The position numbers and the translations under genes are program-made. A DNA stretch of 64,000 bases from Gimesia chilikensis (GTDB lineage Bacteria > Planctomycetota > Planctomycetia > Planctomycetales > Planctomycetaceae), in contig NZ_CP036266.1 in assembly GCF_007744075.1 (NCBI RefSeq), positions 3,891,748 through 3,955,747 on the forward strand, in the 5' to 3' direction. How positions within the stretch are numbered: the first letter of the stretch is position 1; every line of letters starts with the position of its first letter. The notes beneath the pieces were generated by a model. It saw only the letters and a program-made list of their open reading frames with translations, was not told the origin of the DNA and did no database searches. Of this stretch, positions 33,427 through 41,872 are shown piece after piece.

Positions 33427-34857
33427 TCACGGCAGATCAAAGATGAACGAGGTCTGCAGGCGGTGTGCATCGCCTGTCCCGCCGCCGACATCTTCCTTGG
33501 TTCCATACAGATACTCAACACCGATCTTGACGTTCTCGATCGGATTCCAGATCAGGTTTGCCGCCAGGTAAGTGGTCTGTTTGACATCTGTGGCCGTTTG
33601 AAAGGTTGAGGTATCAAGGGTATTTTCGGCATAGGTGAAGTTGGAGCTGAGTTCGTCATTCCAGTCATGGGTCAGACCGATCATCCAGCCGAACATGGGT
33701 AACAGATCACCCTTGTTGGCGGCTGTCGGCGCGGCATCAGGCAGGGACCGATAACTGCCGATCCCTTCACCGAATACGATCTGTGAATAGACCTTTGTGC
33801 GTTCAGTAATCAGCCGCACGCCAGTGAAGTTGAAGCCATAGGCGAAACTGGTGACAACATCCTGCCCTGTCGGCTGGAACCCGACGACACGATACAGGCC
33901 CGCGACCTGGTACTGACCACAGTCATTCTCATAACGCAGTCGGGTGACAAAATCGGGGGACGGACTGCGGGGTTCGCCCGTAATTCCCTGGGGAGGCTCG
34001 ATAATAAAATTCGAATCTTCGACAGAGACCGCGAACGTTGTATTTTCATTGAAGACGTGCTCCGTCCAGCGGACCTGCGCCTGCCTGCGGTTCACAGCAG
34101 AGACGGAGCCTTCGAAGTCGAGTGTTGCAGGAGCAGCTGCCACGTCGGTGAATGTCGTCCAGGTCTGCCCCACCAGCAGTGACCCCGACTGTCCGAAAGC
34201 ATGCCTTAATCGAAAGCGGTTTCCGTCACTGAAGAAGTCACCTTCCACGTAGACGCGAACCAGGCGGCCATTCGTCAGCCAGCGGGTATCAAAACTCAAG
34301 CGAGACTGCCGCGCATGAAACCGGGCATTCGTCCGGGGAGGAGCGCCGATGGGAATGTCAGTCGTCACAAATGAGTCTGTCGAATCGATGGGATTGAAAT
34401 CATAGATGAAATCGGCTTTGACAAAACCGCCGATTTTCATCGCGGCTTCTTTACCAAAGATGATTAATCCATCGGAGAACGAGGGGGCAGCGTAGAGATC
34501 CAGGCCGACGTTAAACTGACGGGCATCTGTGATATAGGGGTCTGCCAGGAGCTCGGGATTGACTTCCCCGCTCCCCACGCCCATGGTCAGCGAAGGCACA
34601 ATCGCCTGACTGGAATCGGGCTCATCCGGAAGCGGACTGCTGTCTAAATTGTTCGACTCATCCAGCGAGATATTCACCCGGCCGGGCTCATCCGTCATCA
34701 CTCCCGGTGCAAAGGGCTGATCGACAGACAGAAACGGATCGTAAGCGGATCGCGCAGCAGGCTCCGGTGGCAAAGACCGACTTTGTGCCCCGACTGTGGC
34801 GGGAACAACGGTCAGTGCCAGCAGCAAGGTACAGGCAAGCTTCGTATTCCAGTGCAT
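33427..34857 (-). CDS. DcaP-type outer-membrane porin
   Basis: A 476-residue protein with a signal peptide (1-25, ending GAQS). An N-terminal proline/acidic region is followed from about 140 by beta-barrel strands. The family start KIGGFVKADFIYDFNPIDS, then ARFHARQSRLSFDTRW, matches the DcaP/OprP-like trimeric porins, which take up anionic small molecules or phosphate across the outer membrane. The C-terminus ends in an aromatic, membrane-signal-like strand (FIFDLP). It is convergent with the preceding secreted-protein gene (17-base gap) and divergent from the SGNH hydrolase. Its presence implies a true outer membrane. Confidence 0.85.
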   Translation of the reverse strand: MHWNTKLACTLLLALTVVPATVGAQSRSLPPEPAARSAYDPFLSVDQPFAPGVMTDEPGRVNISLDESNNLDSSPLPDEPDSSQAIVPSLTMGVGSGEVNPELLADPYITDARQFNVGLDLYAAPSFSDGLIIFGKEAAMKIGGFVKADFIYDFNPIDSTDSFVTTDIPIGAPPRTNARFHARQSRLSFDTRWLTNGRLVRVYVEGDFFSDGNRFRLRHAFGQSGSLLVGQTWTTFTDVAAAPATLDFEGSVSAVNRRQAQVRWTEHVFNENTTFAVSVEDSNFIIEPPQGITGEPRSPSPDFVTRLRYENDCGQYQVAGLYRVVGFQPTGQDVVTSFAYGFNFTGVRLITERTKVYSQIVFGEGIGSYRSLPDAAPTAANKGDLLPMFGWMIGLTHDWNDELSSNFTYAENTLDTSTFQTATDVKQTTYLAANLIWNPIENVKIGVEYLYGTKEDVGGGTGDAHRLQTSFIFDLP

Positions 34858-35114
34858 GGGATGTGAAGTGGGAGAATTGGATTTTGAGCTGAGAGAGTTG
34901 AGGAGAGGCAGATTTATAGCAGAAACCGTAAAATGTGAAAACCTCGGTTTTCAGCGGGAGCACTACATTCAATTACTCATATCTGACTACATGACATACA
35001 CTTACGGCTCGCCGCCAATTGTGGTCATGGCTTGCGTTCTGTTAATTTGTATGACTATGATGAACGTCAATACTCGCGTCTGTTTCAAATCAACCTGCTG
35101 GAAAGACCGCCATT

Positions 35115-35807
35115 ATGCTCAAAATGATCTACCTGCTGTTGCTGGTAACTCCCCTGCTCTGTACGGCAACCTCTTCTGCTGCAGAGGTCATCAATGCCGG
35201 CGTCGGCGGTAATCGCAGTTCACAACTGCTAAAGCGACTGGAGCGGGATGTGCTCTCGAAGCAGCCGACCGTGGTCGTGCTGATGGTGGGCACGAATGAC
35301 CGGCTTAACTCGGGAGGCTTTATTGACATCAAGGCGTACCGCAAGAATGTGGTATCGCTGATCGATCAGATTCAGGCAGGCGGTGCGAAGGTCGTCCTGA
35401 TGACGCCCCCTACGTGTATTCCGGAGTTGCTGTTTACACGACATGACTCCACAAAATACGCCGACCAGGCGCCGCAAGCGCGCATGCAGGAAGTACGAAC
35501 CGTCCTGCTGGACCTTTCGCGTCAAAAGCAGATTCCGGTAATCGACTTTCATGACTATCTGATCGACCACAAAATTGCAGACGCTTCAAAAACCAGTGTC
35601 ATCCGTAATCCGGCAAACAGCGGCGTCAAAGATGGCGTGCATCTGACGCCGGCCGGTTATCAGCTGCTGGCCAGACTCGTCGCTGAGAAACTGAAAGCAG
35701 AGCAACTGGATGTCACGAAGGTGATCTGTTTCGGTGACAGCCTGACGAAAGGATCCAGACAGGCGAACTACCCGGCCTCTCTACAGCAGCTGCTTTCAGA
35801 CAAGTAA
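35115..35807 (+). CDS. Secreted SGNH/GDSL-family hydrolase with permuted catalytic blocks
   Basis: A 230-residue protein with a signal peptide (about 1-22, TSSA-AEV). All four SGNH blocks are present but in a rotated order: block II N-A-G (G29), block III G-T-N-D (N61), block V D-G-V-H (D173, H176), and finally block I G-D-S-L with nucleophile S209 near the C-terminus. Normal family members carry GDS within the first 20 residues of the mature protein. The mature N-terminus EVINAGVGGNRS is exactly what usually follows the GDS block. The chemistry should be ester hydrolysis or transfer outside the cytoplasm; the substrate is unknown. It is convergent with the MFS gene, 11 bases between stops. 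Confidence 0.8.
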   Translation: MLKMIYLLLLVTPLLCTATSSAAEVINAGVGGNRSSQLLKRLERDVLSKQPTVVVLMVGTNDRLNSGGFIDIKAYRKNVVSLIDQIQAGGAKVVLMTPPTCIPELLFTRHDSTKYADQAPQARMQEVRTVLLDLSRQKQIPVIDFHDYLIDHKIADASKTSVIRNPANSGVKDGVHLTPAGYQLLARLVAEKLKAEQLDVTKVICFGDSLTKGSRQANYPASLQQLLSDK

Positions 35808-35818
35808 AGCCACCACGA

Positions 35819-37147
<1,329 letters not shown>

Positions 37148-39049: not shown

Positions 39050-41872
39050 TCAAGGCCAGTCGATCACATGCCTGTCGTTGATCAGCAGCAGATATTTGAG
39101 TGTTTCCGACTTGAGCGCATCCGGAAGATAGCGGGCTGTACCGTCACACAGGGCGACACAGAATCCCCCCGAATAAAAACCACCGAGCTCGGGAACACTA
39201 TTTTCGTCGAAGGGGATGTCCTCTGGTTTGGTCCAGGGAATCTCACGCCTGGCTTCAACAATCGCGATGGTGTTGGAAGTTCCGTCGGTGATCTCACGCA
39301 TGCGGACCCCGGCTACCGGTTCTGCCTTTGATTCGACACCACCGCCTCCTGCCAGGCCGCTAGTGGCAAACGGCTCTGTGCTCATTTCTATCCCTGCCCC
39401 ACCAGCGGGGCGCGTTGATTTGCCGAACACGGTATTGGGACCTGTCACAGCCAGATAGGAAGTCAGATGGCCGGGACGATTATCAACGGGATTTTTAAAG
39501 ACCGCAGGCATTTTTGCCAGGACTTGTTTGTTATGCTCGCTGTCCCAGGGTTCGTTCAGGCGATATTCCTTGTAGAGTTTTTCCTGATCCAGGAAGGGCA
39601 ACAGTGCAACTCTCCAGCTGTGAGGCGTTTTCCCATCTGGCCCGATCACAACCGCGGGAGGAAAATGCTTGTATTTGCTATGATAGAGATGCATGGCCAG
39701 CACCAGGCGTTTGAGATTGTTAAAGGACTCCATCCGCAGGGCCGCTTTACGTGCTTCAATCATCGCGGGAACGAAAGATGACAGCGTATTGTTGAGAACA
39801 GTCATGTCGGTCATTGAAGCTGTCAAACTGACATTTTCCCCGGCTTGATCAAAGTGGAGCGACTTGACGAGATCCAGAGATGACTCTACAAGCGGCACCA
39901 TTGTATGCTGTTCCCGGTTTTGATTTTGAACTATCTGTTGCAGATACTGTTGCAGGAGATTGGTCCCGAGCACCTGTGCCGCCTCCAGGGTCTTACGGAT
40001 CTCCCCGCCGTTCTGCTGTTGATAGAGCGTAGACTGCAACGAGAACTTGTGTTCCAGATTCACTCCCAGGGATATTAGATCCGTGTGTTCCCAGACCGGT
40101 GCCAGAGATCCTTTCCAGACCGAGTCGTTTATTTCCGGTTTCCACTGATTCTTCCAGACCAGTTCGCGAAACTGACGCAGGTTGAACAGTGCGGCGATGG
40201 AATCTTGTGACACAGGTTTCCAAGGCTCTATCCAGCGGCTCGACTTGCGGTTACTGCGGGCTGTAATAACCTGTTCCAGAACTTTTGTCGTTTTCGAGAC
40301 GATCAATTCATGGTCGTTGACGATCGACAGACAATATCCAGGGTAAATATCTGATCGCAAGTAGTGAACTCCCCCATCAGTGACGCCGCTGAATATTTTA
40401 CCTCCTCCACCAAATGATTTGGTGACTTGCTTCAAATCATGAGTCGTCTGAATGACGGCCACATGATTGAGTGGCTGGCTTTGGGGCTGGCCTGCTTCGT
40501 GTGCTAACAGAATCAGGGTGACCGACTGGATTTCGGAAAACGGTAGATCCAGTGGATACAAATGAGAGTTCTCTCTTGCCGCTTTCAACAACTGCAACCG
40601 GGCCATCAGCATTGCCTGCTGCGAAAGTAACTCGGCTGGTCGCAGGGCTAAAACACCCAGGGCATCATTGGGAACCATGTCGATCGCAAAAGGAACATGC
40701 TTTCCACGTACTATTTTATCGCGATCAACCGCACCTGCTGCGGGTTGTGGGTCGCTTTCTGCCGAAGGCTGTTGGGCCAGGCTGATCTGATTCCCCCGGA
40801 AGCCAGACGCGCAGAGGCCAATTAGCAGCATCACACCAAACACCAGTATTCGCTGGGGACGCGAAACGATATTTCCTGGAGAGCGCTTCTGTTTCAACAT
40901 CTCAATCCTCCTTAAAAAAGTGGAATGTGTGGGGAGAAAGGCCCGGGCCGGCCCTGTAAGTCGATGACTCGTCTGCGAAACAGCCATTTCTGCCAGGACG
41001 ACCAGATAAGGAGTGGTACCGCCACTGATCGTCGCCGCGGTGGCATCTGCCGACAACTCCTGTTCCAGGCGCAATCGTGCGACAAGCCAGTGAATCAGCG
41101 GGTGATAAAAATAGAGGGAGCGGCTGAGTTCAGCCCCCAGAATCGCCAGGTAATCGCGATGCCTGATATGAGCCAGTTCATGGGCGAGTACAGCCCGTAG
41201 TTGTTCGGAATTCCATTCGCGCCAGGCAGTCGGCAGGAGGATCACTGGTCGCCACCACCCAATCACTGCCGCTGTTGTGAGTGAAGCATGCTCGCTGATT
41301 TTCAACGGGCAGGATATCTGTTGTTGAGCTACCAGGATATCCAGCGTCTGCTCTGCAACTGATCCGCTAAGCGAAGTTGCCTGACGCAGTAATCGATTGA
41401 GTGAATAGAATGCGAACACCAGTCGGATTGCCGCCAGCAGGAAGCCCACCACGAACATCCAACCAACGATCCCTGCCGGTGTGGAAATACTGGCGGACTG
41501 ATTGGCTACCGGTTTCTGTTGCAAGCCTTTTAGAAACCCTTCCCAGACGGTTGACCATTCCGTTTCCTGCTGAGATTGCTTCAAAATCGGCGTCTGTAAT
41601 TCATTCTCGGGAGCTTCAGTTACGGTTGTATTCTGGATGTCTGAAGCGTCATTGATAGCGGGAGTTGTTTGCTTCCCGGTTGTCTGCCAGCGGGGCCAGG
41701 GGCTGAGGGCGAACATTGCCAGCAGCAAAGTCATTCCGATCGAACAGGAGAGGAGAAACGAGCGCGTTCGGGGACCTAGTTGTTTCGTCGTACTGTAGAT
41801 GAGTAATCCAGCGGCGGAGACCAGCGTTACCTGCAGTCCCAGCCAGAACAGGCTGATTCCAAGTTGATGCAT
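39050..41872 (-). CDS. M56 (BlaR1-like) membrane peptidase fused to a DUF1559 domain
   Basis: A 940-residue protein. The N-terminal part has several membrane helices (about 5-27, 35-57, 131-155) around an M56 metalloprotease motif, HELAH at 231-235, as in BlaR1/MecR1 sensors. A further hydrophobic segment near 360 is followed by a large extracytoplasmic region. The C-terminal 230 residues are a DUF1559 domain: NNLKRLVLAMHLYHSKYKHFPPA, WRVALLPFLDQEKLYKEY, and the closing DGTSNTIAIVEA and CDGTARYLPD motifs. DUF1559 normally follows a type IV pilin-like N-terminus in planctomycetes. Its start overlaps the BlaI stop by one base (TGATG), so the pair is co-translated. It probably senses a signal and cleaves the repressor; the signal is unknown. 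Confidence 0.9.
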   Translation of the reverse strand: MHQLGISLFWLGLQVTLVSAAGLLIYSTTKQLGPRTRSFLLSCSIGMTLLLAMFALSPWPRWQTTGKQTTPAINDASDIQNTTVTEAPENELQTPILKQSQQETEWSTVWEGFLKGLQQKPVANQSASISTPAGIVGWMFVVGFLLAAIRLVFAFYSLNRLLRQATSLSGSVAEQTLDILVAQQQISCPLKISEHASLTTAAVIGWWRPVILLPTAWREWNSEQLRAVLAHELAHIRHRDYLAILGAELSRSLYFYHPLIHWLVARLRLEQELSADATAATISGGTTPYLVVLAEMAVSQTSHRLTGPARAFLPTHSTFLRRIEMLKQKRSPGNIVSRPQRILVFGVMLLIGLCASGFRGNQISLAQQPSAESDPQPAAGAVDRDKIVRGKHVPFAIDMVPNDALGVLALRPAELLSQQAMLMARLQLLKAARENSHLYPLDLPFSEIQSVTLILLAHEAGQPQSQPLNHVAVIQTTHDLKQVTKSFGGGGKIFSGVTDGGVHYLRSDIYPGYCLSIVNDHELIVSKTTKVLEQVITARSNRKSSRWIEPWKPVSQDSIAALFNLRQFRELVWKNQWKPEINDSVWKGSLAPVWEHTDLISLGVNLEHKFSLQSTLYQQQNGGEIRKTLEAAQVLGTNLLQQYLQQIVQNQNREQHTMVPLVESSLDLVKSLHFDQAGENVSLTASMTDMTVLNNTLSSFVPAMIEARKAALRMESFNNLKRLVLAMHLYHSKYKHFPPAVVIGPDGKTPHSWRVALLPFLDQEKLYKEYRLNEPWDSEHNKQVLAKMPAVFKNPVDNRPGHLTSYLAVTGPNTVFGKSTRPAGGAGIEMSTEPFATSGLAGGGGVESKAEPVAGVRMREITDGTSNTIAIVEARREIPWTKPEDIPFDENSVPELGGFYSGGFCVALCDGTARYLPDALKSETLKYLLLINDRHVIDWP

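Follow-up and report, generated by a model that had tools for sequence, protein, structure and literature searches.

The protein P0001, encoded by a gene of Gimesia chilikensis, carries all four catalytic blocks of the SGNH/GDSL hydrolases, but in the order II-III-V-I rather than I-II-III-V. The gene lies at 35115-35807 of the window, i.e. the whole 64,000-nucleotide stretch that was analysed (assembly GCF_007744075.1, contig NZ_CP036266.1, positions 3,891,748-3,955,747 of the forward strand). Its product is very probably an exported, circularly permuted SGNH serine ester hydrolase with the usual catalysis, and the permutation probably had a single origin by duplication and fusion. A preliminary description had reported four retained blocks in this order, and the sequence, profile rotation and the orthologues all confirmed it.

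In canonical SGNH/GDSL proteins (PF13472/PF00657), the GDS motif of block I comes first, whereas in P0001 it comes last: the chain passes through block II (N27-A-G29-V-G-G32), block III (G59-T-N61-D62) and block V (D173-G-V-H176) before reaching block I (G207-D-S209-L), 21 residues from the C-terminus (Table 1). The GDS(L) serine, the block II glycine, the block III asparagine, the DxxH of block V and the alpha/beta/alpha fold of the superfamily are all present, and the protein departs from PF13472 in linear order. The pattern G[DNAE]S occurs once in the open reading frame (ORF), at residue 207. The native protein matched PF13472 with 87.8 bits over profile positions 32-178 only, i.e. after block I, but placing residues 199-230 before residues 24-198 gave 98.6 bits and a match over positions 1-178. 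The same rotation extended the main alignment to PDB entry 1yzf from chain residues 39-188 to 2-188, with the whole-sequence score rising from 55.3 to 58.0 bits. Since rotation extends both alignments, the order II-III-V-I amounts to a textbook GDSL protein cleanly rotated, as had been proposed. The joint 177-201 stands where a normal SGNH protein has its chain ends, the helix 219-228 is the one that follows GDS in normal proteins, and the new chain ends are located in the loop ahead of strand 2.

A confident structure model, built from an alignment of 13 rows, integrates strand 202-207, which leads into GDS, in the sheet (mean predicted local distance difference test score, pLDDT, of 93 for residues 201-210), and structure prediction thus agrees with the permutation first described. 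According to the proposed mechanism, the chain would begin at strand 2 (block II), with strand 1, the nucleophile elbow bearing GDS and helix 1 forming its end; insertion of the last strand into the sheet would bring Ser209 to Asp173 and His176 of the same chain, with Gly29 and Asn61 as the presumptive oxyanion-hole residues. With the triad and the oxyanion hole so assembled, the usual acyl-enzyme route would be expected, and the catalytic steps should, by analogy with the SGNH family, apply to P0001.

An orthologue covering both ends of the protein was found in 15 of the 17 Gimesia genomes searched, the other two being 74% and 76% complete, and the permuted gene was present in five of six genomes of the sister genus, g34. 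The Gimesia orthologues have in common their own start, a signal-like N-terminus and the C-terminal block. Residues S209, D173, H176, G29 and N61 are invariant in the alignment of the 15 Gimesia proteins, and G29, N61, D173 and H176 remain so when distant permuted relatives are aligned. Since GDSLT is also invariant (15/15), the C-terminal block I is not due to chance. For block I, 13 pairwise comparisons gave nonsynonymous divergences (dN) of 0.11-0.31; synonymous divergence (dS) was computable in six of them and exceeded dN in all six, while in the core region dS exceeded dN in 9 of 13 pairs. In one orthologue (L014, genome G002), GDSLT is followed immediately by an in-frame TAA at 2119-2121, which would delete the last helix and may be either a natural truncation or a sequencing error. 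The G. chilikensis genome contains 23 PF13472 places, and only the window gene is permuted; further permuted copies were rejected, given that the late GDS of L190 and the late GAS of L189 each follow a normal upstream GDSL.

The permutation is not unique to this genome, and permuted homologues were found in Gimesia and g34, in further planctomycetes and on two viral contigs. Profile sampling covered one phylum and viral contigs, whereas phage and plasmid records were searched with single proteins; the genome samples overlap, the counts are lower bounds, and often only part of the candidates per genome was scored, so absences are soft. The distant permuted proteins, whose identity to P0001 was 30-37% in the cases compared, include L052 (G064, the same bacterial family but another genus), L083 and L096 (both G304), L084 (G446), L085 (G371) and L124 (G551), and in G439 a single permuted protein is split at contig ends into the halves L086 and L113. 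Judged by match range, at least 21 of 170 genomes of the family sample carry the permuted form (15 Gimesia, five g34 and G064). In the class sample, at least 27 of 397 genomes matched; 17 of the matches reach block I (15 Gimesia, two g34), and the other 10 are of normal order by range. The junction profile matched at least 12 of 391 genomes of the phylum sample (eight Gimesia, G304, G371, G439 and G446), and profile A7 at least six of 226, five of which reach block I. Within narrower groups, the counts were at least one of 29 genomes in the class of G304, two of 23 in the order of G446 and two of 151 in the order of G371. The distribution is therefore patchy, being confined in the class sample to Gimesia and g34 and reaching four of 391 phylum genomes outside Gimesia. 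With P0001 as the sole query, a search of genome contigs from 84,980 species, which detects close relatives only, returned one locus (L031).

Scans of IMG/VR yielded two viral contigs with permuted members, L125 and L126, 35% and 29% identical to P0001. The 231-residue L125 gene lies between an Fn3-containing gene and, beyond a 66-residue ORF, an Amidase_3 endolysin gene, while L126 is the C-terminal part of a 432-residue protein, a tape-measure gene lying roughly 2 kb away; these neighbourhoods (L146 696-4440 and L155 623-6629) combine a permuted esterase with fibre/lysis and tape-measure genes. Other viral matches with a readable GDS position were of normal order, and L141 had no usable position. 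The best rows from a viral fold library, judged without chain order, include SGNH phage proteins that are normal by name. Among plasmids, tblastn with the L083 core gave nine records, none matching past residue 189 of 218, and no permuted one was recognised; the phage records, three for L126 (to residue 173 of 210) and two for L125 (to 172 of 217), were of normal order by range. Shared by further planctomycetes and two viral contigs, the permuted order represents an established enzyme form and not a one-off accident.

The domain contexts of the family are diverse. The permuted module opens the long proteins L083 and L096, and in three g34 genomes (L047, L050, L051) it is preceded by an alpha/beta-hydrolase-like domain bearing the motif GFSRGA; in L047, the only one of the three scanned, PF00756 matched this domain with a score under the cut-off. 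The characterisation of P0001 as a small stand-alone enzyme thus holds for this protein but not for the family as a whole. The suggestion that the signal peptide accompanied the origin of the permutation or made it possible was not supported: the permuted L084 and L086 apparently have no signal peptide and start at block II (start codons read by eye), and the g34 fusions and the viral L125 and L126 also speak against it. Two single proteins may be mentioned here. In L096, which also contains CBM_4_9 and a sub-cut-off CBM9-like match, block I reads GAS in place of GDS, and L024 (G017) is a 744-residue frame with an N-terminal normal-order SGNH domain and a C-terminal region that by eye resembles the fused hydrolase domain of g34.

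The spacing of the blocks bears on the origin of the permuted form. Of 16 permuted proteins, 15 show a distance of 34 residues from DxxH to GDS and one shows 33; the value is 34 in L124 and L125 and 30 in L126. In compact normal-order proteins of the phylum (L171, L101, L077 and L102, the four with a reading among seven tried, L022, L095 and L092 giving no value), GDS precedes block II by 32 residues, and the end of the chain comes 27-30 residues past DxxH. Old ends joined head to tail, together with the few residues before GDS, would account for a step of about 34 residues from block V to block I. The most likely route would start from an ordinary SGNH gene that was duplicated in tandem and fused, after which the first block I and all that lay past the second one were lost. 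A frame of 899 residues from the same bacterial family (L021, 427-3123, minus strand) has the architecture SASA-SGNH-SGNH and contains a II-III-V-I stretch across the junction of its two domains; match patterns suggest similar tandem proteins in G022, G070, G071 and G177. Trees were built on the II-V core alone, i.e. without the trait itself. They placed the permuted proteins on one side of a branch with values of 98/97 (55 rows), 93/95 (47 rows) and 91/94 (43 rows), a separation that may be flattered by the fact that the normal-order rows were mostly found with the permuted profile. The 55-row tree left out 10 hmm matches without a recognised block V (the contig-cut L086 and nine expected to be of normal order) as well as weak and duplicate matches. 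The permutation most likely arose once, as judged from these sequence comparisons.

Several observations weigh against this overall interpretation. Only four of the 13 rows behind the structure model cover block I, its confidence is among the lowest near block V (mean pLDDT 58 for 161-170 and 78 for 171-180), and a first model, with two sequences behind it, reached a poor pLDDT of 59 and was set aside. A tree with the extreme long-branch row L179 (16 of the 25 permuted and 21 of the 30 other rows of the 55-row set, plus three permuted and eight normal rows) required two changes. In the presence of L179 a single permuted clade was not rejected (approximately unbiased test, p-AU 0.44), and leaving out L179, and then four more long rows as well, brought back the single permuted group. 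The tandem protein L021 differs from the permuted proteins by its two whole normal-order domains, its V-to-I linker is 46 residues long versus 34, and it is not adjacent to the permuted set in the trees; it is therefore a proof of principle for the fusion and not the ancestor. An offset of +183 shared by L021 and the permuted proteins was dismissed as a coincidence in view of this linker and the shorter core of L021. As for function, the DcaP porin and the transporter beside the window gene are confined to its nearest relatives and name no substrate, and the 10 Pfam-scanned neighbours were chosen by eye from 15 loci, two of the 10 being beta-helix proteins without a clear link to sugars.

A truncated or frameshifted normal gene, with the N-terminal block I lost and an incidental GDS at the C-terminus, would explain why the matching Pfam and NCBIfam models leave out the nucleophile block and begin past block I. 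This is a negligible prospect, however, considering the own start, signal-like N-terminus and C-terminal block common to the orthologues, the retention of block I with dN below dS and the identical order in distant relatives. Moreover, the stop-to-stop frame extends P0001 upstream by 17 residues only, and no G[DNE]S is present in the three forward frames of 34501-35114, in accordance with the earlier statement that no in-frame GDS lies upstream; with the conserved order, this absence rejects the artefact for practical purposes. The C-terminal strand and helix could instead complete the active site of a neighbouring subunit in a domain-swapped dimer, because an element at the chain end could swap and the modelling was of a monomer only. 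Such an arrangement appears quite unlikely, given that the monomer model integrates the strand, that the short, nearly fixed V-to-I joint suits closure within a single chain and that the module is also found inside larger proteins. The remaining structural alternative is membership of the AlgX/AlgJ/WssI/PatB1 O-acetyltransferases, which, according to the available portions of the published texts, form one permuted SGNH group with the order H-S-G-N or near it (PMC9487903, PMC4148444, PMC10302187, PMC5697884). They share with P0001 a permuted SGNH core with the serine after Asp/His (PMC9487903, PMC4148444, PMC10302187), and rotated P0001 gave a weak ALGX match to blocks I-II (24.8 bits, cut-off 26.5). 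However, the cut in this group lies between blocks III and V (H-S-G-N, H-S-G-Y or H-S-G-D, i.e. V-I-II-III), whereas in P0001 it lies between I and II (G-N-H-S) with textbook motifs; the group, as described in those portions, shows DxH or DHHW, GTSYS or KDS motifs and extra parts. P0001 has GDSL, GTND and DxxH where AlgX and AlgJ have GTSYS, a tyrosine for the block III asparagine and DxH, and it has GDSL, NAGVGG and DGVH where the DHHW/PatB1 proteins have KDS, DXRY and TDHHW. Native P0001 had no ALGX match among those listed up to E = 1, and the absence of AlgX structures from the fold matches listed for it is uninformative either way. Order and motifs both differ, so that membership of this group, from which the gene had been set apart from the outset, is highly improbable and was rejected.

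The solved folds nearest to P0001 are led by 1yzf and include the acetyl xylan esterase 7ddy and the sialate O-acetylesterases 7pzg and 6njc. The substrate is most likely an O-acetyl or other O-acyl group, perhaps on a polysaccharide, and an exported O-acyl esterase acting on polysaccharide is a reasonably probable description of the enzyme. Carbohydrate-related context was found at several loci: CBM_4_9 in the L096 protein, DUF6259 in the L083 protein with GH130 and GntR genes near it, SASA and sulfatase genes near the L156 orthologue and sulfatase genes near the L169 orthologue (the neighbourhoods were listed for 15 loci, the permuted ORF itself being hidden by the overlap filter in L159, L168, L169 and L170). 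Planctomycetes are rich in sulfatases, and because of this and the selection by eye, such neighbours are weak evidence. The permuted hydrolase could instead act on small esters or lipids, a tentative but tenable alternative, as SGNH folds also serve thioesterases and lipases and the DcaP porin and major facilitator superfamily (MFS) neighbours need not concern polysaccharide; against it stand the relatives fused to or beside carbohydrate modules and the two viral members, with their fibre/lysis and tape-measure surroundings. Deacetylation of surface polysaccharide by SGNH esterases of phage tails has been described (PMC8471582, available in part) and suggests a possible role for the two viral permuted proteins, although the other readable viral matches are of normal order. 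The porin gene that flanks the window gene also accompanies the orthologue in L001-L005, and the MFS gene in L001-L004, the closest relatives only. Farther downstream, at 39050-41872 on the minus strand, lies a 940-residue ORF with the metallopeptidase-like motif HELAHIRHRDYL, which we take, by eye, to be BlaR1/M56-like.

Table 1 Features of the permuted gene and its neighbours in the window
Feature	Position	Strand	Basis or remark
Permuted SGNH hydrolase gene (P0001), 230 aa	35115-35807	+	ATG start; stop 35805-35807; orthologues
Putative signal peptide, residues 1-23	35115-35183	+	Cleavage predicted near SAA/E24 by inspection of the sequence
Block II NAGVGGN, 27-33; oxyanion Gly by family rule	35193-35213	+	Sequence, alignment; strand in model is 24-27
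Block III GTND, 59-62; oxyanion Asn61 by family rule	35289-35300	+	Sequence, alignment
R109-H110	35439-35444	+	Invariant in 16/16 permuted proteins of alignment A4; absent from viral L126
Block V DGVH, 173-176; triad Asp/His by family rule	35631-35642	+	Sequence, alignments
Joint 177-201, from block V through its helix to the nucleophile strand	35643-35717	+	Spacing, structure model
Nucleophile strand and block I, KVICFGDSLTKG, 202-213; Ser209 codon 35739-35741	35718-35753	+	Sequence, alignment, model
C-terminal helix 219-228	35769-35798	+	Structure model
DcaP outer-membrane porin (PF19577)	33427-34857	-	Flanks permuted gene
MFS transporter	35819-37147	-	Flanks permuted gene

The permuted proteins are real and conserved, and they add a new permuted form to a fold that is already well known. 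The open-access literature, as represented by the portions of text available, yielded no account of an SGNH fold permuted to G-N-H-S, subscription papers being outside the search; in such portions, permutation terms are used for other subjects (PMC3779223, PMC5408684, PMC2848206, PMC12419801, PMC4411048, PMC4817252, PMC10485009, PMC7720462, PMC4176579), among them the CE4 deacetylases, another permuted esterase family. What appears new in the literature searched is the place of the cut, the retention of intact textbook motifs and the occurrence on viral contigs, although the surprise to a specialist is moderate because permuted SGNH proteins are already known. Since the matching Pfam and NCBIfam models omit the nucleophile block, permuted proteins are easily read as ordinary or truncated GDSL proteins. 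Natural permutations with all catalytic motifs intact are clean tests of the effects of chain order on folding and evolution, and a set for comparison is at hand in the close orthologues, the distant homologues, the ordinary paralogues of the same genome and the natural tandem protein. A more speculative and on balance doubtful idea is that this second, independent SGNH permutation (G-N-H-S), of single origin, founded a lasting family of planctomycetes and tailed phages in which it works as a built-in latch: with the central nucleophile strand synthesised last, active enzyme could form only after completion of the chain and its release or export. If true, such a latch would suit enzymes harmful to the producing cell's own esters. 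The permuted proteins add a candidate esterase type to the planctomycetes and to phages.
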